NCBI GenBank assembly: GCA_028868695.1
Contig: JAGWTZ010000008.1
Location: forward strand, 1-64,000
Origin: Alphaproteobacteria bacterium
GTDB taxonomy: Bacteria; Pseudomonadota; Alphaproteobacteria; Rhizobiales; Aestuariivirgaceae
Length of the DNA stretch: 64,000 bases
Direction: 5' to 3'
The notes beneath the pieces were generated by a model. The model was given only the letters and a program-made list of their open reading frames with translations, ran no database searches and was not told where the DNA came from. Positions 7,442-35,720 of this stretch are shown in pieces. The position numbers and the translations under genes are program-made. Within the stretch, counting starts at the first letter, position 1. Each line of letters begins with the position of its first letter.

Positions 7442-10158
7442 TTGCCGCTGAAACCCAATTTGCCAAGTTGCTTGGCGAACTTCAGGCGCCAGATGTGCTC
7501 GCCTTGCGCAACAAGGCTTCGGGCCTTGTCCGTGATTGCCTGGCCAGCGCGCGCGAGACGGCTGAAGCGCAGCTCCTGAAAGATGGGCACGGCACGGCTT
7601 GCGCCGAATTCCTTTCGCAGACCGAGGATTTCATCATCCGCAACCTGTTCAGCTTTGCCTGCACGCGTCTTTCGGCCGGGGCCATTGAGCTTTCTGTGGT
7701 GGCGGTGGGCGGCTATGGCCGCGGCACGCTGGCGCCCGGCTCTGACATTGACCTCCTCTTCCTGCTGCCAGCGCAGGCCTCCGCGAAGGTGAACGAGGTT
7801 GTGGAGTTTCTGCTTTATGCCCTTTGGGACGCACGGCAGAAAGTGGGCCATGCCACGAGACAGGTGGATGAATGCCTGCGCCTGGCCAAGACCGACAACA
7901 CCATTCTCACATCCATCCTGGAGGCGCGCTACATCTGCGGCGCCAAGCCCCTGTTCACCCAGCTTTCGGAGCGCTTCAAGGCAGAGATCGTGGCCACCGG
8001 CGCCAAAAAGTTCGTGACCGAAAAACTGGCTGAGCGCGATGGCCGCCATGCCAAGTCCGGCGAGAGCCGCTATGCGGTGGAGCCTGACCTGAAGGACGGA
8101 AAGGGTGGCCTGCGCGATTTGCACACGCTGTTCTGGATCGCCAAGTTCATCTTCAACGCCAATTCGCCCGACGAACTGGCGGAAAAAGGCGCCTTCTCCA
8201 AGACCGAGCTGCACACCTTCCTCAAATGCGAGGATTTCCTCTGGGCGGTGCGCTGCCATTTGCACTTCATTGCCAAACGCGGCGAAGACCGCCTGAGTTT
8301 TGACCGGCAGGCCGAACTTGCCCAGCGCCTGCGCTACAAATCCCATGGCGGGCTGAAGGCCGTCGAGCGCTTCATGCGCCACTATTTCCTGATCGCCAAG
8401 GATGTGGGCGATCTCACCCGCATCTTCTGCGCCAGCCTGGAGCAGAAACATTTCAAGGAAGCGCCGCGGCTTTCCCGGCTGATCTCAAAGTTCCTGCCCA
8501 GCCGGGCGCGGGCGCGGGGCGTTCCCTCCGCCTTCAAGCTGGAGAACGGCCGCATCAGCGTGGTCAATGACCAGGTGTTTGCGCAAGATCCCGTCAACAT
8601 GCTGCGCATCTTCAAGCTGGCCAGCGAAGGGCTGACTGAAATCCACCCCGATGCCCTGAAGCTGATGCGCAAGTCCTTCCGCCTGATTGACGACAGGCTG
8701 CGCCAGAACAGGGAAGCCAATGGCATCTTCCTCGACATCCTGTGCAAGAGCGAGGCGCCGGAATCCCTCCTGCGGCTGATGAATGAGGCAGGCGTTCTGG
8801 GCCGTTTCATTCCGGAGTTCGGCAAGATCGTCGCGATGATGCAGTTCAACATGTATCACCACTATACTGTTGATGAGCATCTGATCCGGGCGGTTGGCGT
8901 GCTGAGCCAGATTGAAAACGGAACCTTCGCCAAGGACCATCCGCTCTCTGCCAAGATTTTCCCCACGCTCTCCTCGCGCCGGGCGCTTTATGTGGCCACG
9001 CTGCTGCATGACATCGCCAAGGGCCGCAAGGAAGACCATTCCGTTGCCGGCGAAAAAGTGGCGCTGGAGCTTTGCCCAAGGCTGGGGCTTTCACCGGAGG
9101 AGACCGACCTCGTGGCCTGGCTCATCCGCAACCATCTGCTGATGAGCGAAACCTCGCAGATGCGCGACCTCAACGACTTCAAAACCATCCTGGATTTCGT
9201 GCAAGTGGTACAAAGCCCGGAGCGGCTGAAGCTGCTCTTGATCCTCACGGTGGCTGACATCCGCGCCGTGGGGCCGGGTGTGTGGAATGGCTGGAAGGGC
9301 CAGCTGTTGCGCACGCTCTATCTTGAGGCGGAGCCGGTTGTTTCCGGTGGCCATTCGGCGACCAGCCGGGATGCCCGCGTGCATCTGGCGCAGGATGCGT
9401 TTTTCGCCAAGCTCGGCGTGGCCGATGAAGCGGCGCGCCAGAAGATCGCCAGCCGCCACTATGACGCCTATTGGCTCAATGTCGCCACCGAGCGGCAGCT
9501 TCGCCACCACCAGCTGATGGCCAAGGCGGTGAAAGGCGAGGTGCTGACTGACGTTGCCACTGATGGCTTCGCCGGCATCACTGAGATCACGGTTTTTGCG
9601 CCCGACCACCCGCGGCTTCTGGCGCTGATCACCGGGGCTTGCGCGGCGGCGGGCGGCAACATCATTGGCGCACATATCTTCACCACCACCGATGGCATGG
9701 CGCTGGACACCATCTTGCTCACCCGCGAATTCAAGGCCGAGGACGACGAGGCGCGGCGGGCGGCGCGCATCTGTGATTCCATCCGCCGCGTGCTGCATGG
9801 GCAAATCCGCCTGCGCGAAGAGCTGGCGCGGGTGCAGCAGATGCCGGACCGGGCGCGGGCCTTCACCGTTGTGCCGCGCGTGGTGGTGGACAACGCCTCC
9901 TCCAACAAGAACACCATCGTGGAAATCAACGGCATGGACCGGGTGGGCCTGCTGCACGCCCTTACCGAGGCGCTGTTCCACCTCAACCTCAACATCGCCT
10001 CGGCGCATATCACCACTTTTGGCGAAAAGGCGGTGGACGTGTTCTATGTGACGGATCTGACTGGCGCCAAGATCACCAGCCCTTCGCGCATCGGGCAGAT
10101 CGAGAAATCGCTGCATGCGGTGCTGGCGCCCGCGCCGGAGCAAATGGCGGCGGTTTGA
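7438..10158 (+). CDS. glnD: Bifunctional PII uridylyltransferase/uridylyl-removing enzyme GlnD
   Basis: A 906-residue protein with full family architecture: nucleotidyltransferase with GGYGRGTLAPGSDIDLL at about residues 91-107, a GlnE/GlnD linker domain, an HD domain with LLHDIAKG near residue 521, and two C-terminal ACT domains (about 715-785 and 825-900) that sense glutamine. It uridylylates PII at low nitrogen and removes UMP at high nitrogen. Its substrate, a PII protein with Tyr51, is encoded at 48149-48487. It overlaps mutS by 4 bp. Confidence 0.97.
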   Translation: MIAAETQFAKLLGELQAPDVLALRNKASGLVRDCLASARETAEAQLLKDGHGTACAEFLSQTEDFIIRNLFSFACTRLSAGAIELSVVAVGGYGRGTLAPGSDIDLLFLLPAQASAKVNEVVEFLLYALWDARQKVGHATRQVDECLRLAKTDNTILTSILEARYICGAKPLFTQLSERFKAEIVATGAKKFVTEKLAERDGRHAKSGESRYAVEPDLKDGKGGLRDLHTLFWIAKFIFNANSPDELAEKGAFSKTELHTFLKCEDFLWAVRCHLHFIAKRGEDRLSFDRQAELAQRLRYKSHGGLKAVERFMRHYFLIAKDVGDLTRIFCASLEQKHFKEAPRLSRLISKFLPSRARARGVPSAFKLENGRISVVNDQVFAQDPVNMLRIFKLASEGLTEIHPDALKLMRKSFRLIDDRLRQNREANGIFLDILCKSEAPESLLRLMNEAGVLGRFIPEFGKIVAMMQFNMYHHYTVDEHLIRAVGVLSQIENGTFAKDHPLSAKIFPTLSSRRALYVATLLHDIAKGRKEDHSVAGEKVALELCPRLGLSPEETDLVAWLIRNHLLMSETSQMRDLNDFKTILDFVQVVQSPERLKLLLILTVADIRAVGPGVWNGWKGQLLRTLYLEAEPVVSGGHSATSRDARVHLAQDAFFAKLGVADEAARQKIASRHYDAYWLNVATERQLRHHQLMAKAVKGEVLTDVATDGFAGITEITVFAPDHPRLLALITGACAAAGGNIIGAHIFTTTDGMALDTILLTREFKAEDDEARRAARICDSIRRVLHGQIRLREELARVQQMPDRARAFTVVPRVVVDNASSNKNTIVEINGMDRVGLLHALTEALFHLNLNIASAHITTFGEKAVDVFYVTDLTGAKITSPSRIGQIEKSLHAVLAPAPEQMAAV

Positions 10159-11787: not shown

Positions 11788-12846
11788 ATGACCACTGAGG
11801 CGAAAACCAGTTTCACCCCGCGCGTGCTTTCGGGCATGCAGCCCACCGGCAACCTGCATCTTGGCAACTATCTGGGCGCCATGGTGAACTGGGTGAAAAT
11901 GCAGGCCACGCATGAGACGCTCTATTGCGTTGTGGACCTGCATGCCATCACCCAGGCGATTTCTGTCTGGGGCGGGCCAAATGAACTGCGCCGCGCCATC
12001 CGCGATGTCACCGCCGCCTATCTCGCCTGCGGGCTGGACCCGAAGAAATCGGCAATCTTCAACCAATCGCAGATTGCCGAACACAGCGAGCTGGCCTGGG
12101 TGTTCAATTGCGTGGCCCGCATCGGCTGGCTGGACCGCATGACCCAGTTCAAGGAAAAGGCCGGCAAGGACAAGGAGAAGGCCTCGGTTGGCCTATATGA
12201 CTATCCCGTTCTGATGGCCGCCGACATCCTGATCTACAAGGCCACCTCGGTTCCGGTGGGCGATGACCAGAAGCAGCATCTTGAGCTGACGCGCGACATT
12301 GCCCAGAAGTTCAACATTGATTTTGCCGACTCGATCCGTGAGCAGGGTTTTGGCGATGCTTATTTCCCGCTTCCAGACCCGATGATCTCCGGCCCGGCGA
12401 CCCGCGTGATGAGCCTGCGCGACGGCACCAAGAAGATGTCGAAATCCGACCCCTCTGACCTCTCGCGCATCAACCTGACAGATTCAGCAGAAGACATCGC
12501 CAAGAAAATCCGCAAGGCCAAGACTGACGCTGAAGGCCTGCCCACCGAGGCCACGGGCCTCAAGGGGCGGCCCGAGGCCGAGAATCTCGTCGGCATCTAT
12601 GCGGCACTCGATGGCAACAGCGTTGAAGGCGTCTTGAAGCAATATGGCGGCGGACAGTTCTCCACCTTCAAGAATGCGCTCGCTGATCTGGCGGTGGCCA
12701 AGCTGGCGCCCATCGCCGGAGAGATGAACCGCTATATCGCCGACCCCGGCTATATCGAGGGCGTTCTGAAGGATGGCGCGAACCGGGCACGGGCCATTGC
12801 GGCGCCTGTGATGGCCGACGTGCGCAAGATCATGGGCTTTGTCTAA
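11788..12846 (+). CDS. trpS: Tryptophanyl-tRNA synthetase
   Basis: A 352-residue class I synthetase that charges tRNA-Trp. The HIGH-type signature is in [12 protein letters not shown] near residue 17 and the KMSKS loop is in [10 protein letters not shown] near residue 215. A start three bases after the murJ stop, with GAGCG before the ATG, indicates an operon with murJ. The alphaproteobacterial insertion rich in Lys ([10 protein letters not shown]) near residue 125 is present. Confidence 0.97.
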
Positions 12847-25419: not shown

Positions 25420-26255
25420 TACCGGAACTCCGGATCAACATCGCGGGCCACCAGGCGGTAGAGCTCTTCCGTCACGGCTGGTTTCTGGCCAAACCATTTC
25501 TCAAAACCCACCACGGCCTGATGCAGCAGCATGCCGAGGCCGCCGAGAGTGGCCAGGCCCCGGGCTTCAGCCCTCCTGAGCAGTTCGGTCTTGAGCGGCA
25601 CATAGACAATGTCGGCCACGATCGCTGAAGACGGCAGACTGGAGAGCTCTACATCTGGCCCAGGCTGCCCGGCCATACCTTGCGATGTGGTGTTGACCAG
25701 CAGTGTTGCTGTTTTCGATTCGCTGTCGAAATGATCCGGATCTACAGAGCGTACGGCAGGGCCGAACAGTCCCGCCAGCTCTTCCGCGCGGGCGACAGTT
25801 CGGTTGACGATGGCAATTTCAGCCATACCAGCCCGGAGGAGCCGTTCGATGATGGCACGGGCCGAGCCACCGGCGCCAAGAATAATGGCTTTCTGGGCTT
25901 TGGCGTCAAAGCGCGGGTAAGCCGACAGGAGATTTTGGTAGAAGCCTTCTCCATCCGTGGACGTGGCGCTCAGCTTGCCGCCATCGAAATATACCGTGTT
26001 GAGCGAGCCGGTCTTGCGCACTACGGCATCGAGATTGGGAATGAGCCGAAGCGCCGCTTCCTTGTGGGGAATGGTGACATTGCAGCCCTCATAGCCTTCC
26101 TCTCGCAGGTGGCTGAGAAAATGGGCTAGCTGCTCTGGGCGCACTTCACGCTTTTCATAGAGGCCAGCAATCCCCAGTCTCTTGAGCCAATAATTGTGAA
26201 TCAAAGGCGAGCGGGAATGGGAAATGGGAAATCCGATGACGCAGGCTTTTTTCAT
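25419..26255 (-). CDS. aroE: Shikimate dehydrogenase (NADP+)
   Basis: A 278-residue enzyme that reduces 3-dehydroshikimate to shikimate. The substrate site SHSRSPLIHNYW lies near residue 13, the catalytic Lys is in NVTIPHKEAA near 66, and the NADP-binding loop is LGAGGSARAI near 125. It overlaps maf by 4 bp (ATGA) and coaE by one base, so the minus-strand genes from maf to dnaQ are probably one operon. Confidence 0.96.
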   Translation of the reverse strand: MKKACVIGFPISHSRSPLIHNYWLKRLGIAGLYEKREVRPEQLAHFLSHLREEGYEGCNVTIPHKEAALRLIPNLDAVVRKTGSLNTVYFDGGKLSATSTDGEGFYQNLLSAYPRFDAKAQKAIILGAGGSARAIIERLLRAGMAEIAIVNRTVARAEELAGLFGPAVRSVDPDHFDSESKTATLLVNTTSQGMAGQPGPDVELSSLPSSAIVADIVYVPLKTELLRRAEARGLATLGGLGMLLHQAVVGFEKWFGQKPAVTEELYRLVARDVDPEFR

Positions 26256-26854
26256 GAGAGGATTATAGACTGTTGGCGCAGGAAGGCGAGAAGGGGCAAG
26301 AGCGGAAGGCCCAGGATTGTGAAAACATCGCCTTCGACGGTTTCGAACAGCTGGATGCCGGGGCCTTCGTAAAAATAGCAGCCAACTGCCGAGAGCGCCT
26401 CCGCGCCTGACTGAGCCAGGTAGTCCTCAAGGAAGGCATCGCTGAACTGCCGCATGGTGAGTGTTGCCGTTGAAACATGGGAGAACATGATCTGGCCATC
26501 CCGGGCCATGGCCAAGGCTGAATGAAGCTGGTGGGTGCGGCCGCGGAGTGCGCGCAATTTTTCCCGGGCCTCGCTGGTATTGCGCGCCTTGTGCAGAACA
26601 CTTCCATCGAGATCGAGACTTTGATCGGCACCCAATATCAGCCTTCCGGGCTGGGTGCCAGAAATGGAAAGGGCCTTGGCCTTGGCAAGTTCAATAGCCA
26701 AGCTGCGTGGCAGCAGGTGTTGCCACTGGTCTTGCAGGGCGGCTTCATCCGCACTTGGCTTGAGCACTTCGGCGGCAATCCCGGCTTTTGTCAGAACAGA
26801 CAGGCGGGTCTTGCTGGCAGAGGCCAAAATGAGGGGGGAGTTGTTCACCGCCAT
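26252..26854 (-). CDS. maf: Maf-family nucleotide pyrophosphatase
   Basis: A 200-residue protein with the N-terminal ILASASKTR signature and the ILGADQSLDLDG active-site region near residue 70. Maf proteins hydrolyse canonical or modified nucleoside triphosphates and have been linked to septum control. The start at MAVNNSPLIL is chosen because the family begins there; an upstream in-frame ATG at 26938 would run across a DnaA box. It is the first gene left of the origin. Confidence 0.92.
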   Translation of the reverse strand: MAVNNSPLILASASKTRLSVLTKAGIAAEVLKPSADEAALQDQWQHLLPRSLAIELAKAKALSISGTQPGRLILGADQSLDLDGSVLHKARNTSEAREKLRALRGRTHQLHSALAMARDGQIMFSHVSTATLTMRQFSDAFLEDYLAQSGAEALSAVGCYFYEGPGIQLFETVEGDVFTILGLPLLPLLAFLRQQSIILS

Positions 26855-26925
26855 GTGGGGAATGCCTGTTGAAAAATCGGGCTTGGCCAGCCTATGGCAT
26901 GGAGTGCCAAGGCTTCTCAACAAAG

Positions 26926-26934
26926 TTTTCCACA
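26926..26934 (+). promoter_or_regulatory. DnaA box (TTTTCCACA)
   Basis: Matches the relaxed DnaA consensus TTWTNCACA and differs from the strict TTATCCACA at one base. It lies inside the putative origin, about 70 bp upstream of the maf start, in the same orientation as the second box. Confidence 0.5.
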
Positions 26935-27000
26935 TCACCTGCCCAAATTGGCTGGCAAACCGAAAGCTGTGGAGGGTTTTCGTTTGCGGTTGGCGTTTAG

Positions 27001-27013
27001 TAATTTGTTGATT
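27001..27013 (-). promoter_or_regulatory. IHF binding site in the putative origin
   Basis: On the minus strand the sequence is AATCAACAAATTA, an exact WATCAA-N4-TTR match. It lies between the two DnaA boxes, as expected for origin bending by IHF. A GATTC methylation site overlaps its end. Confidence 0.55.
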
Positions 27014-27054
27014 CTCTAGGAGTTCTTTTCCCGGCGCGGAGAGCCTTCAGGGCT

Positions 27055-27063
27055 TTATCCACA
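27055..27063 (+). promoter_or_regulatory. DnaA box (TTATCCACA, strict consensus)
   Basis: Exact match to TTATCCACA, about 50 bp from the AT-rich block that precedes hemE and could serve as the unwinding element. Confidence 0.7.
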
Positions 27064-27164
27064 TGTTGTCAGGGGTGCCGGTTGGCATTCCACGATTTTC
27101 ATCCAAATCACGGGCCAACAATAGTATCACTTAAGATTATCTCTTCTTTATTTAGGGGACGTGT

Positions 27165-28187
27165 TTGAAACCCATTCTCGACGTGTTGAACGGACGCAAG
27201 CCAGAGCGGCGGCCAATGTGGATCATGAGGCAGGCAGGCCGCTATCTTCCGGAATACAGGGAGTTGCGGGCCAAGGCCGGGTCATTCCTGAATCTTTGCT
27301 ACCATCCCGAATGGGCTTGTGAAGTGACGTTGCAGCCACTGCGCCGCTTTGATTTTGATGCGGCGATCCTGTTCTCGGATATTCTTGTGGTTCCCCATGC
27401 CATGGGGCTGGCGCTTGATTTCAAAGAGGGCGAGGGCCCTGTGCTCGAGACAGTCAAAGATTTGATGGGCGTGAATGCATTGAGCGATGGCCGAAGCAGT
27501 GAACAGTTCAGCCGGGTTTATGAAACGGTTTCGCTGGTCAAGAACGGCCTTTCGGCGAAGCAGACGCTGATCGGCTTTTGTGGCGCGCCATGGACAGTGG
27601 CCAGCTACATGATTGAGGGCGGCAGTTCGAAGCGGCAGAAGGCTTTGGCCGTGGCCACGGAAAACCCGGCGTGGTTTTCGCGGCTGATTGACAGGCTGGT
27701 GGAGACCTCGACTGCGTATCTGCTGGGCCAGATTGCGGCGGGGGCGGAGACGGTGCAGGTGTTTGACAGCTGGGCGGGCGATGTGCCGGCAGAAGCGCTG
27801 CAGCGGGTGGTGGTTGAGCCCATTGCGCGTATTGTTGCGGGCATCAGGGCGGCTCATCCAGGGTTTCCGGTGATTGTGTTTGCACGGGGCGTGGGCAATG
27901 CGCATGCTGAAGTGGCCGTTGGCACGGGCGCCAATTGTGTCGGGCTCGAGGAAGATGCCGAGATTGGGGCGGTGCTGCGGTCTTTGCCGAAGCATGTTGG
28001 CGTTCAGGGCAATCTCTCAAATGAGTTGTTGCTGGGGCCGGAGGCAGCAATGGTTGCCGAGGCGCGGAAAATATTGGCGGCGGTTCCGGCTGACCGGCAC
28101 ATTTTCAACCTTGGCCACGGCATTCAGCAGCAGACTGAAATCAGGATGGTGGAACGGCTGGTGGCTGAGGTGAGGGCTTCGGGCTGA
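27165..28187 (+). CDS. hemE: Uroporphyrinogen decarboxylase
   Basis: A 340-residue enzyme that decarboxylates uroporphyrinogen III to coproporphyrinogen III in haem synthesis. The RQAGRYLPEYR signature is near residue 22, with GFCGAPWTVASYM and VFDSWAG further on. The only suitable start is a TTG preceded by AGGGGA with 5-bp spacing, so translation probably uses a rare start codon. It stands at the right edge of the putative origin, and its stop overlaps hemJ by one base. Confidence 0.96.
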   Translation: MKPILDVLNGRKPERRPMWIMRQAGRYLPEYRELRAKAGSFLNLCYHPEWACEVTLQPLRRFDFDAAILFSDILVVPHAMGLALDFKEGEGPVLETVKDLMGVNALSDGRSSEQFSRVYETVSLVKNGLSAKQTLIGFCGAPWTVASYMIEGGSSKRQKALAVATENPAWFSRLIDRLVETSTAYLLGQIAAGAETVQVFDSWAGDVPAEALQRVVVEPIARIVAGIRAAHPGFPVIVFARGVGNAHAEVAVGTGANCVGLEEDAEIGAVLRSLPKHVGVQGNLSNELLLGPEAAMVAEARKILAAVPADRHIFNLGHGIQQQTEIRMVERLVAEVRASG

Positions 28188-31358: not shown

Positions 31359-31374
31359 TGTTTCACGTGAAACT
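31359..31374. other. parS site 1 (centromere-like ParB target)
   Basis: TGTTTCACGTGAAACT matches the parS consensus TGTTTCACGTGAAACA at 15 of 16 positions, with the TTTCACGTGAAA core intact. It starts at the base after the mnmE stop codon, 4.3 kb from the putative origin and 2.6 kb before parA. Confidence 0.9.
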
Positions 31375-31410
31375 GGCGCGGGCGTTGGCATGCTCCGTGC
31401 ACAGAGGATT

Positions 31411-31425
31411 TTAACCCTTCATTAA
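31411..31425 (+). promoter_or_regulatory. CtrA box upstream of mnmG
   Basis: TTAACCCTTCATTAA fits TTAA-N7-TTAA exactly, the full consensus of the cell-cycle regulator CtrA. It lies 54 bp ahead of the mnmG start and 36 bp after parS site 1. CtrA binding is inferred. Confidence 0.5.
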
Positions 31426-31478
31426 GCATTGCGGCGGAGGACTCGCCAATTCTGCCGAATTGGAGTAGTGGCGCGGCC

Positions 31479-33344
31479 ATGAACGGGAACTTCGATGTGA
31501 TCGTGGTGGGCGGCGGCCATGCCGGCTGTGAAGCAGCGGCGGCGGCGGCGCGCCTTGGCGCGGCCACGGCGCTGCTCACGCACAAGCGGGCCACCATTGG
31601 TGAGATGTCGTGCAACCCGGCGATCGGTGGCTTGGGCAAGGGCCATCTCGTGCGGGAGATTGATGCGCTGGATGGTGTAATGGGCCGCGTGGCGGATGCG
31701 GCGGGAATTCAGTTCCGGCTGCTCAACCGCTCCAAGGGCCCTGCGGTGCGGGGGCCAAGGGCACAAGCCGACCGTAAGCTCTACCGCGAGGCCATGCAGG
31801 CCGCCCTTGCTGCGCAGCCTGACCTAGAAATTGTTGAAGGCGCTGCCACGGCTTTGATCATTGAGAATGGCGCCGTTTCCGGAATCAAGATAAGCGATGG
31901 GCGCGAGTTGCGGGCCAAGGCTGTGGTGCTCACCACCGGCACCTTCCTCAATGGCCTTATCCACATTGGAGAGAAGCAAATCCCGGCCGGACGGGTGGGG
32001 GAAGCCCCTGCCCTTGGCCTTTCCGGCCAGCTTGCTGCCGCAGGCTTGCAGCTTGGCCGCCTCAAGACTGGCACGCCGGCGCGGCTGGATGGCAAGACCA
32101 TCAATTGGTCTATTCTCGAAGAGCAGAAAGGCGACGACCCGCCGGTGCCCTTCTCATTCCTCACCACCCGTATCACAACGCCGCAGATTGCTTGCTTCAT
32201 CACCAGCACGACCGCGCGAACCCATGAGATCATCGCCGCCAATATCGGGCGCTCGCCGCTTTATTCTGGGCAGATCAGCGGCACCGGGCCGCGCTATTGC
32301 CCTTCGATCGAAGACAAGATCCACCGCTTCAAGGACAAGACCTCCCACCAGATCTTCCTGGAGCCGGAAGGGCTGGATGATGACACGGTCTATCCGAACG
32401 GTATATCCACCTCCCTGCCGGAGGATGTGCAGGAAGCCTTCATCCATTCCATGCCGGGGCTGGAGCAGGTGCGCATCATCCGCCCGGGCTATGCCATCGA
32501 GTATGACTATGTGGACCCGCGCGAGCTGGGGCATGACCTGCAGGTGAAGAAACTGCCGGGGCTCTACCTCGCCGGCCAGATCAACGGCACCACAGGCTAT
32601 GAGGAAGCGGGCGCCCAGGGCCTCTTGGCGGGCATCAATGCGGCGCGTTCCGCGGGCGGTTCCGGCCCTGCCTTGTTTGACCGCGCCGATGGCTATCTTG
32701 GCGTGATGGTCGATGACCTGGTGATGCGGGGCGTTTCAGAGCCCTACCGGATGTTCACCTCGCGAGCTGAATACCGCTTGGCACTGCGGGCGGATAATGC
32801 CGATCAGCGGCTGACCCCCAAGGGCATTGCGCTCGGTGTGGTCGGCCCTGCCCGCGCCAAGGCCTTTGCAGCGCGGATGGAGGCGATCGCCGCGGCGCGG
32901 AATGTTGCACGTGAATCACTGATGACATCCTCGGCGCTGGCCAAGCTGGGCGTTAGGGTCAACCAGGATGGTCGCAGCCGCAACGCGATGGAACTCATCG
33001 CGATGCCGGACGTGGGCTTGGAACGGGTTGAACAGCTTTGGCCCGCCCTTGCCGCCCTGCCCAGCTTCGCCAAGGAAGCGCTGGAGGCCGATGCGCTCTA
33101 TTCCGGCTACATGGACCGGCAGGAGGCCGAGATCGCCGCGCTGCGCAAGGATGAGGGCATCGCCATCCCCACTGGCCTCGACTATTTCGCCATTCCCAGC
33201 CTGTCGATGGAGCTGCGCCAGAAATTGTCCCGGGCCCAGCCCGGCACCCTGGCGCAAGCCGCACGGGTGGAAGGCATGACGCCGGCGGGTCTGGCCTGCC
33301 TGCTTGGCCATATCAAGAAGCCGCGGGCCAAACAGGTCGCGTGA
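31479..33344 (+). CDS. mnmG: tRNA uridine-5-carboxymethylaminomethyl modification enzyme MnmG (GidA)
   Basis: A 621-residue FAD protein. The dinucleotide-binding [10 protein letters not shown] is at residues 9-18, CNPAIGG with a conserved Cys near 46, and [10 protein letters not shown] plus the GidA signature GTTGYEEA near 370. The helical C-terminus docks MnmE. It partners MnmE in tRNA U34 modification. A second parS-like site is embedded in its coding sequence near 32903. Confidence 0.97.
32903..32918. other. parS-like site 2 inside mnmG
   Basis: TGTTGCACGTGAATCA matches the parS consensus at 14 of 16 positions, keeping the central CACGTGAA. It lies within mnmG codons, which explains imperfect conservation. 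ParB affinity may be reduced. Confidence 0.5.
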
Positions 33345-33383
33345 GTTCTTGCTGGGCCCGCGCCCAGGCCCTATGGGGAGGCC

Positions 33384-34016
33384 ATGAATTCCATTCCGCA
33401 AGAGACTTGGGACAGGCTTGGTGTTTCACGTGAATCCGTGGCGCGGCTGGAAGTGCTGGCGGGCACCCTCGGGGCATGGCAGCAACGCATCAACCTCGTC
33501 GCGCCCTCGACGGTAGATGACCTCTGGCACCGCCACATCCTTGATGCCGCCCAGCTCTTGCCGCTGCTGCCCCGGGGCACCAGGGCCATCGCTGATCTCG
33601 GTTCCGGGGGCGGCTTTCCGGCCCTGGTTCTGGCGGCCATACAGCCGGCCACCGTGCACATGTTTGAAGCCAATGCCAAGAAGGCGGCCTTCCTGCAGGA
33701 AGCGCTGCGGCAGATGAAGGTGCAGGGCCATGTGCACCGCCAAAGGCTGGAACAGGGCGTTGCCCCCAAGGGGATGCCAATCGTCCAAGTGGTCACCGCC
33801 CGGGCCTTTGCGCCGCTGGAGGAGCTTTTGGGTTATGCCGAGCCGTTCTTCAGGGCGGGAGCCATAGGTCTTTTCCACAAGGGCCAAGATGTTGATGCAG
33901 AATTGACGCAAGCTGCTAAATCTTGGAAAATTTCGGCTCAGAAACATTCCAGCCTTACTGATTCGAAGGCGGTGATCCTGGACGTGAAGGAGATTTCCCA
34001 TGTTGATGGAAACTAG
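33384..34016 (+). CDS. rsmG: 16S rRNA (guanine527-N7)-methyltransferase RsmG (GidB)
   Basis: A 210-residue Rossmann-fold methyltransferase that methylates G527 of 16S rRNA using S-adenosylmethionine. The SAM-binding loop is IADLGSGGGFPAL near residue 71, and VTARAFAPL lies near 135. The early codons contain a parS-like site. The last 17 bp overlap parA, so rsmG and parA are co-transcribed. Confidence 0.95.
   Translation: MNSIPQETWDRLGVSRESVARLEVLAGTLGAWQQRINLVAPSTVDDLWHRHILDAAQLLPLLPRGTRAIADLGSGGGFPALVLAAIQPATVHMFEANAKKAAFLQEALRQMKVQGHVHRQRLEQGVAPKGMPIVQVVTARAFAPLEELLGYAEPFFRAGAIGLFHKGQDVDAELTQAAKSWKISAQKHSSLTDSKAVILDVKEISHVDGN
33422..33437. other. parS-like site 3 inside rsmG
   Basis: TGTTTCACGTGAATCC matches the consensus at 14 of 16 positions, with the first 13 bases perfect. 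It lies 38 bp into rsmG and about 580 bp before parA. Confidence 0.7.
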
Positions 34017-34815
34017 CGCAAAACGCCCGCGCATCCTGGCTGTGGCCAACCAGAAGGGCGGCGTGGGCAAAACCACCACCGCCATCAACCTCGGCACGGC
34101 GCTGGCCGCCGTGGGAGAAACCGTGCTGGTGATTGACCTTGACCCGCAGGGCAACGCTTCGACGGGCCTTGGCATTACCCGCCGCGCCCAGCAGAAATCG
34201 TCCTACCACGTGCTGATCGGTGAGGCCGACCTTGATCAGGTGATCGTCGAATCAGCCATACCGCGCCTGCACTGCGCGCCAGCTACCATTGACCTTCTGG
34301 GCGCCGAGCTTGAGCTGGCCGACATGGCGCGCAAGACCCACCGGCTGGCTGATGCCATCCAGCTGATGATGGCCATGCCGAACCGGAACTACTCCTACAT
34401 TCTGGTGGATTGCCCGCCATCACTGAACTTGCTGACCATCAACTCCCTCACTGCGGCTGACGCCATTCTGGTGCCGCTGCAATGCGAGTTCTTCGCACTC
34501 GAAGGCTTGAGCCAGCTTCTGAAAACGGTTGAGCGGGTGCGCACCACGCTGAACCCCAAGCTGATGATCCAGGGCGTTGTGCTCACCATGTTCGACAAGC
34601 GCAACTCGCTTTCTGACCAGGTGGCGCAAGACGTGCGCGAAGTGCTGGGCGACAAGGTTTATGAAACGGTGATTCCGCGCAACGTGCGCATTTCCGAAGC
34701 GCCGTCCCATGGCAAGCCGGTTCTGCTTTATGACCACGCTTGCGTGGGCTCGCAAGCCTATATCCGGCTGGCCTCGGAAGTGATCCGGCGCGAACGCGAT
34801 TTGCGCGCCGCCTGA
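34000..34815 (+). CDS. parA: Chromosome partitioning ATPase ParA (Soj)
   Basis: A 271-residue deviant Walker ATPase with KGGVGKTTT at residues 19-27, VIDLDPQGNAS near 47 and the switch region VDCPPSLNLL near 137. It drives segregation of ParB-parS complexes. AAGGAG lies 7 bp before the ATG at 34000; a second in-frame ATG follows at 34006. It overlaps rsmG and is followed by parB after 35 bp. Confidence 0.96.
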   Translation: MLMETSAKRPRILAVANQKGGVGKTTTAINLGTALAAVGETVLVIDLDPQGNASTGLGITRRAQQKSSYHVLIGEADLDQVIVESAIPRLHCAPATIDLLGAELELADMARKTHRLADAIQLMMAMPNRNYSYILVDCPPSLNLLTINSLTAADAILVPLQCEFFALEGLSQLLKTVERVRTTLNPKLMIQGVVLTMFDKRNSLSDQVAQDVREVLGDKVYETVIPRNVRISEAPSHGKPVLLYDHACVGSQAYIRLASEVIRRERDLRAA

Positions 34816-34850: not shown

Positions 34851-35720
34851 ATGACACAGGCACAAAAGCGCAGACTGGGACGGGGCCTTGCCGCGCTGAT
34901 CGGCGATGACACATCCGAAGAATCGGTTGTCCAAGATATCCGTGCCTTGCGTCATGTGCCCATTGAGCTGTTGCGGCCCAACCCGCACAATCCGCGCAAG
35001 CATTTTGCCGAAGATGACCTGAACACGCTGGCGCAATCGCTGCGCGACAAGGGGTTGCTGCAGCCGCTTGTGGTGCGGCCCAAGGCGGATGGCACTTTTG
35101 AAATCGTCGCAGGCGAGCGGCGCTGGCGCGCCAGCCAGCGCGCCGGGCTGCATGACTTGCCGGTTCTCGTTCGCGAGCTTGATGACAAGGAAACGCTTGA
35201 GATCGCGCTTATCGAAAACATCCAGCGCAGCGATCTCAACGCCATTGAAGAGGCCCGCGCCTACCGCCAGCTTCTTGAGCAATATGAATACACCCAGCAG
35301 CAGCTGGCCGACGCCATCGGCAAAAGCCGCAGCCACATTGCCAACACCATGCGCCTGCTCAACCTGCCTGATGCCACGCAGAAACAGATTGAAGACGGCA
35401 GCCTGACAGCCGGGCATGCGCGCGCGCTGATCGCCACCGAAACACCGGAAGAGCTCGCTGACAAGATCATCAAGCTGAACCTCACGGTGCGGCAGGCGGA
35501 AGACCTGGCGCGCGAAACCACGCCAACGGCGAAGCGCAAGGCAACGCCCGCCGAGAAAGATGCCGATACCCGCGCGCTTGAAAAACAATTGAGCGAAGTG
35601 ATGGGCCTGGCCGTTGCAATCAAACACAAGGACAAGCTGGGCGGCCAGGTGGTGATTTCCTACAAGACGCTGGACCAGCTTGACGACGTCATCAAGAAAC
35701 TGGGCGGGCAGATCAGCTAG
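34851..35720 (+). CDS. parB: Chromosome partitioning protein ParB (Spo0J)
   Basis: A 289-residue parS-binding CTPase. The N-terminal RRLGRGLAALIG motif contacts ParA. The CTP-binding GERRWRA lies at residues 88-94 and ENIQRSDL near 123. A helix-turn-helix (about 145-175; QQLADAIGKSRSHIANTMRLL) and a C-terminal dimerisation domain follow. The last 8 bp overlap the convergent holA end. Three parS-like sites within 3.5 kb upstream are its likely targets. Confidence 0.96.
   Translation: MTQAQKRRLGRGLAALIGDDTSEESVVQDIRALRHVPIELLRPNPHNPRKHFAEDDLNTLAQSLRDKGLLQPLVVRPKADGTFEIVAGERRWRASQRAGLHDLPVLVRELDDKETLEIALIENIQRSDLNAIEEARAYRQLLEQYEYTQQQLADAIGKSRSHIANTMRLLNLPDATQKQIEDGSLTAGHARALIATETPEELADKIIKLNLTVRQAEDLARETTPTAKRKATPAEKDADTRALEKQLSEVMGLAVAIKHKDKLGGQVVISYKTLDQLDDVIKKLGGQIS

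Follow-up and report, generated by a model that had tools for sequence, protein, structure and literature searches.

The origin of Escherichia coli, oriC, displays a T-rich strand beside a DnaA box and lies apart from dnaA; in Bacillus subtilis, the DnaA box of the basal unwinding system (BUS) has a defined orientation, and the DnaA-trio was reportedly introduced in a 2016 paper. The B. subtilis BUS is described as a box, a G/C spacer and triplets, the latter on the strand that runs from the box towards its own 5' end (PMC8287927; PMC10721633), and in the trio 3'-GAT-5' the central adenine is contacted by Asn187 of DnaA and the guanine by Arg202 and Glu228 (PMC10721633). Unwinding through a BUS was reported to be broadly conserved, with 15% of the surveyed origins having no detected trios; that 2021 survey required the pattern 3'-NAN-5', and its authors suspected the existence of deviant trios without the central adenine (PMC8287927). 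Regarding Alphaproteobacteria, the origins of Caulobacter crescentus (Cori) and Rickettsia prowazekii are adjacent to hemE, in a gap of a few hundred bases with DnaA boxes, an IHF site and AT-rich DNA, and the boundary gene is reported to vary in the published origins of Wolbachia and Ehrlichia as well (PMC1914354), so that a boundary gene of the COG1806/DUF299 type does not define the hemE-adjacent kind. The DnaA boxes of Cori have been described as few and weak, and CtrA sites as a feature of the Caulobacter origin which, according to that account, was unseen in other origins (PMC4468827).

In this work, we analysed a window of 64,000 nucleotides (the whole stretch of DNA under study), corresponding to positions 1-64000 of a contig of 76,779 bases (C38) from a genome of 3.09 Mb, which is distributed in 101 contigs and estimated to be 99.67% complete. 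The named relatives closest to it belong to the uncultured Hyphomicrobiales, for example palsa_927 (hemE identity of 76%), with Aestuariivirga and Taklimakanibacter being more distant. The relevant features of the window are the following:

26252-26854, minus strand: maf
26855-27164, no strand: conserved noncoding gap of 310 bp between maf and hemE, very probably oriC (homologous gaps in relatives, and a skew turn at the equivalent place in genome G004)
26926-26934, plus strand: DnaA box TTTTCCACA, one mismatch
27001-27013, minus strand: match to the IHF consensus, AATCAACAAATTA
27010-27014, no strand: GANTC (CcrM-type) site
27055-27063, plus strand: DnaA box TTATCCACA, exact
27104-27112, plus strand: degenerate DnaA-box-like site next to the array, CAAATCACG, with 5 mismatches relative to TTATCCACA
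27113-27115, no strand: G/C spacer GGC
27116-27130, no strand: triplet array CAA CAA TAG TAT CAC (as read on the plus strand), putative variant DnaA-trios, phase taken from the motif
27131-27154, no strand: AT-rich stretch adjoining the array, candidate DNA unwinding element
27165-28187, plus strand: hemE
31359-31374, plus strand: parS-like site, one mismatch
32903 and 33422: further parS-like sites, two mismatches each
34000-34815 and 34851-35720, plus strand: parA and parB

A first-pass annotation made from the sequence had proposed a probable origin between maf and hemE, given that the flanking genes point away from the gap, that parS and parAB follow within 9 kb, and that the gap contains a strict and a relaxed DnaA box, an exact IHF consensus, a GANTC site and an AT-rich block. 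All of these features were recovered. The genes maf and hemE are divergent, with maf, aroE, coaE and a dnaQ-like exonuclease gene found leftward of the gap, and hemE, a UPF0093 gene (presumably hemJ), rho, mnmE, mnmG, rsmG, parA and parB rightward. Three parS-like sites are present within 31359-33437, far above chance (0.00 expected), and parB ends at 35720. With up to one mismatch, DnaA boxes numbered 8 in the whole window, a total which is not unusual given the 4.5 expected; conversely, the gap alone held 2 against 0.08 expected (p of 0.003, the floor of 300 shuffles). The hemE end of the gap (27125-27154) is 80% AT. The match to the IHF consensus WATCAANNNNTTR is the only exact one in the 64 kb, where 0.81 are expected by chance, and exact matches also occur in 3 of 28 other gaps; GANTC occurs once in the gap and 103 times in the window. 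Since about 0.8 IHF matches per window are expected by chance and GANTC is common, these two sites add little on their own.

In being adjacent to hemE, spanning a few hundred bases, and combining DnaA boxes above chance with an IHF site and AT-rich DNA, the gap resembles Cori and the R. prowazekii origin, and its location and composition are those of an ordinary hemE-type alphaproteobacterial oriC. Two differences from Cori were found: the other boundary is maf instead of a COG1806/DUF299-type gene, and a full-site pattern search for the CtrA-type TTAAN7TTAA returned none in the gap. The only TTAAN7TTAA of the window is the CtrA-like TTAACCCTTCATTAA at 31411-31425, beside the best parS-like site and between mnmE and mnmG.

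Place and size of the gap are conserved among 29 homologous gaps (28 relatives and the window; 281-602 bp), a set from which locus L036 was left out as it had no maf match. Together they contained 66 DnaA boxes with up to one mismatch, against 3.1 expected and a maximum of 12 in 300 shuffles. In 11 of the 29, maf is separated from the gap by an additional gene, whose end was placed by estimated length; two such genes were examined by Pfam, and both corresponded to PF03618 (kinase/pyrophosphorylase), which we take to be the COG1806 type that bounds the Caulobacter origin. PF03618 had no match in the window's own genome.

GC skew further points to this place. In G004, a genome of the same genus sampled in 20-kb stretches, the skew was negative in 7 of 9 stretches left of hemE and positive in all 10 from hemE rightward, the first of these ten including the gap and hemE. 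The cumulative minimum was located at 320,000 (1-kb steps inside 280-360 kb), and hemE starts at 321,733; hence, the turn lies about 2 kb or less from hemE. No lasting sign change was observed around dnaA of this genome (95,389, same contig as hemE). The skew of G036, from the same order, stepped in the same direction from 0.005-0.020 to 0.047-0.071 with the sign unchanged, and the change in G018, from the same genus, was very weak. Because the skew of G004 turns at hemE, at least one close relative very probably initiates replication in this gap. As the assembly of the window's genome is split into 101 contigs, and the window's own 77-kb contig yields no usable skew (0.018 over the 27 kb to the left and 0.037 over the 27 kb to the right, with the cumulative minimum at 12,000), we infer origin function in the window's species by homology. 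The conserved gap, the box enrichment, the published synteny, parS/parAB and the G004 skew all agree with the initial proposal, and 26855-27164 is very probably the chromosomal replication origin of this species. The neighbourhood of dnaA (L007, 3.5 kb) contains one DnaA box, with a mismatch. Another site of the same genome, a pair of exact DnaA boxes at a distance of 55 bp (at 9392 and 9447 of L001, spanning 9392-9455; C87:29391-29454), was considered as an origin and set aside; it lies where a 153-aa ORF with no Pfam match begins, and may be a DnaA-regulated promoter or a titration site.

According to an alignment of close relatives, the best-conserved part of the gap is its hemE side, 27104-27154, which was absent from the first-pass annotation. 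The window's motif copy (27104-27144) reads CAAATCACG GGC CAA CAA TAG TAT CAC TTAAGATTATCTCT, and several relatives carry TTATCCAC(A/G) at the position of CAAATCACG. Motif discovery on 75 non-redundant hemE-upstream regions (those left of 111, including two belonging to the window, after filtering on shared 10-mers, length and N) returned tatCCACngnC-CAA-CAg-AAA-CAa-CAa followed by AT-rich DNA, with a log-likelihood of 595, the highest value from 20 dinucleotide-shuffled sets being 156; the EM seeds were picked after the motif was known, and from ten random seeds one recovered the whole motif (572 vs 595) and two its box-side half. The posterior exceeded 0.5 in 72 of the 75 regions, which are the very regions on which the motif columns were fitted. 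The motif starts 45 to 242 bases from hemE. The pattern TCACNGNCCAACA is not unique in the genome, with 2 exact and 53 one-mismatch places vs 29 for the reversed control. Within the 40 bp starting 20 bases into the motif, GANTC was found in 46 of 69 copies, compared with 27% of 40-bp stretches drawn at random from these regions; the corresponding 40 bp of the window lack the site.

The order of this element, namely DnaA box, G/C spacer, triplet array and AT-rich DNA, is that of the B. subtilis BUS, and the first trio base is likewise mostly G (C on the plus strand in 235/375 triplets). Unlike the B. subtilis BUS, the central base of the presumed trio strand is mostly T rather than A, both in the window's array and across the motif set (plus-strand A in 289/375 triplets), and 46 of 69 arrays display three consecutive central A on the plus strand. 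A canonical run of at least three 3'-NAN-5' trios, the pattern by which a BUS is recognized (plus-strand central T), was present in 1 of 69 arrays when read in the motif-set phase. A BUS is also expected to have a DnaA box within 16 bp of the triplets; at this position the window's site is degenerate, with its 5 mismatches, and boxes with up to 2 mismatches precede 12 of 68 arrays (2/68 in random stretches), 41 of the 68 copies having 4 or more mismatches, so that the box is weak in most copies. This candidate unwinding array is unusual, in that its layout resembles that of a BUS, whereas its central base departs from what defines a BUS.

The DnaA of the window's genome, aligned to the B. subtilis structure 8BTG, differs from B. 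subtilis DnaA in having Tyr instead of Asn at position 187 and Lys instead of Arg at 202. To cover the class, 143 genomes were searched, with a hemE match in 120, and 69 upstream regions besides the window's own were used (29 best-matching and 40 hand-picked for spread), DnaA being obtained for 59 of them. The 75-region motif, when applied to these 69 regions, gave no clear excess over their own shuffles in most. Residue 187 was Tyr in 48, Phe in 4, Asn in 2 and other in 6 of the 60 proteins (59 and the window's own). A further 30 DnaAs were added deliberately, 15 from near relatives and 15 from relatives of the two Asn187 genomes, and the resulting counts (Tyr 61, Phe 5, Asn 17, other 7 of 90) do not represent a random sample, as these 30 were chosen on purpose; residues 202 and 228 were Lys and Glu, respectively, in 90/90. 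The Asn187 families f66 and f109 carry, at the same place, arrays like GGCT-CTA-CTA-CTG-CTA-CTA and GGCC-CTA-CTA-CTT.

For the comparison of both DnaA classes, arrays were located by their box, first-base C and downstream AT, an anchor that ignores the central base; an earlier blind anchor without the downstream AT misplaced several arrays, at a stage when the Asn187 class comprised two genomes, and was dropped. Among arrays above their shuffles, the plus-strand central base was T in 55 of 61 triplets of Asn187 genomes (13/17 genomes), and A in 76, T in 42, C in 41 and G in 7 of the 166 triplets of Tyr/Phe187 genomes (39/64 genomes); no array rose above shuffles in the remaining 4/17 and 25/64 regions, respectively, nor did the window's own array with this anchor. 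The unfiltered counts of central T were 58/77 (Asn187) vs 61/258 (Tyr/Phe187). Per genome, arrays were mostly of central T, i.e., canonical, in 10/12 Asn187 vs 6/40 Tyr/Phe187 genomes, numbers that differ slightly from the triplet-count set because new shuffles were used. Exceptions occurred both ways: G076, G125, G164, G111, G077 and G022 (one triplet) for Tyr/Phe187, and G088 and G183 for Asn187. On a quick DnaA tree (columns 183-196 omitted; several long branches), Asn187 corresponds to two changes, one of which is forced by well-supported branches; thus, per-genome p-values overstate the evidence, and the association rests on very few independent events. Taken with these exceptions, the data are suggestive of covariation between residue 187 and the central base of the trio.

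We favour, with moderate confidence, a reading in which the gap is the origin and is opened by a BUS of variant trios, with Tyr187 altering the base preference. DnaA would bind the two good boxes (26926 and 27055), and IHF, as suggested by its site, may bend the DNA between them. The DnaA filament would then be led across the degenerate proximal box (27104-27112) and the G/C spacer to a single strand of the triplet array (27116-27130), and the AT-rich DNA on the hemE side would open and receive the helicase. The array engaged by DnaA would consist of trios whose first base is mostly G and whose central base is mostly T here, and A, T or G among the remaining alphaproteobacteria with Tyr/Phe187; Tyr in place of Asn at residue 187 would cause the changed preference with which DnaA presumably reads this array.

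A simpler explanation is a plain hemE-adjacent oriC, in which the conserved element is an AT-rich unwinding element plus a weak box, opened by DnaA through binding of a T-rich single strand in the manner of E. coli and with no trio-type strand recognition. The presumed trio strand is indeed T-rich (5'-TTGTTG..), resembling the E. coli single-strand motifs, it stands beside a box in an origin away from dnaA as in oriC, and most copies have a weak proximal box; however, the window's element has few boxes, a spacer and a triplet periodicity as in the BUS, the latter recurring at a fixed place past the box and the G/C spacer, and the Asn187 clades hold canonical arrays at that same place, which makes this explanation unlikely, although it is the strongest of those competing with the variant-trio BUS. 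The array might otherwise consist of canonical trios on the other strand, since the plus strand read 3'-5' follows (G/A)A(C/A), with DnaA moving towards the box. This would agree with the prevalence of central A on the plus strand, but boxes in reverse orientation with up to 3 mismatches did not exceed the random level on the hemE side of the array (9/68 vs 7/68 in random stretches, compared with 27/68 for the box in front), none of 68 copies had one with up to 2 mismatches beyond the array, and the canonical trios of the Asn187 clades lie on the opposite strand with the same layout; in addition, flipping the box orientation is reported to inactivate the B. subtilis element (PMC6669920). After the Asn187 clades and the reversed-box counts, the canonical plus-strand array was set aside as improbable. 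Still less credible is a hemE promoter or leader outside any origin: the element is upstream of hemE in all the regions used, themselves chosen by hemE, yet its distance to the gene varies widely, DnaA-box-like sites precede it, and the G004 skew turns here.

Extending the variant-trio BUS beyond this group, it is possible, although somewhat less likely than not, that most Alphaproteobacteria open their chromosome origin with a re-coded BUS with Tyr for Asn and the central adenine replaced by thymine or left free, that Asn and adenine trios were jointly regained in two clades, and that initiator and origin have co-evolved a single-strand code. Among the matches listed in the open-licence literature, no deviant alphaproteobacterial trio was found. 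The element constitutes a specific deviant-trio candidate for a large bacterial class, located beside hemE, and its link to a single DnaA residue (187) renders the model of base recognition directly testable.

Among the sampled genomes, G043 and G176 (L235, L266) encode very divergent DnaA proteins, with Arg and Ser at 187, respectively, and their hemE-upstream regions have no array above shuffles. In G088, a relative whose genome is a single contig, hemE matches as two overlapping pieces in different frames (L280, L281), as if frameshifted.
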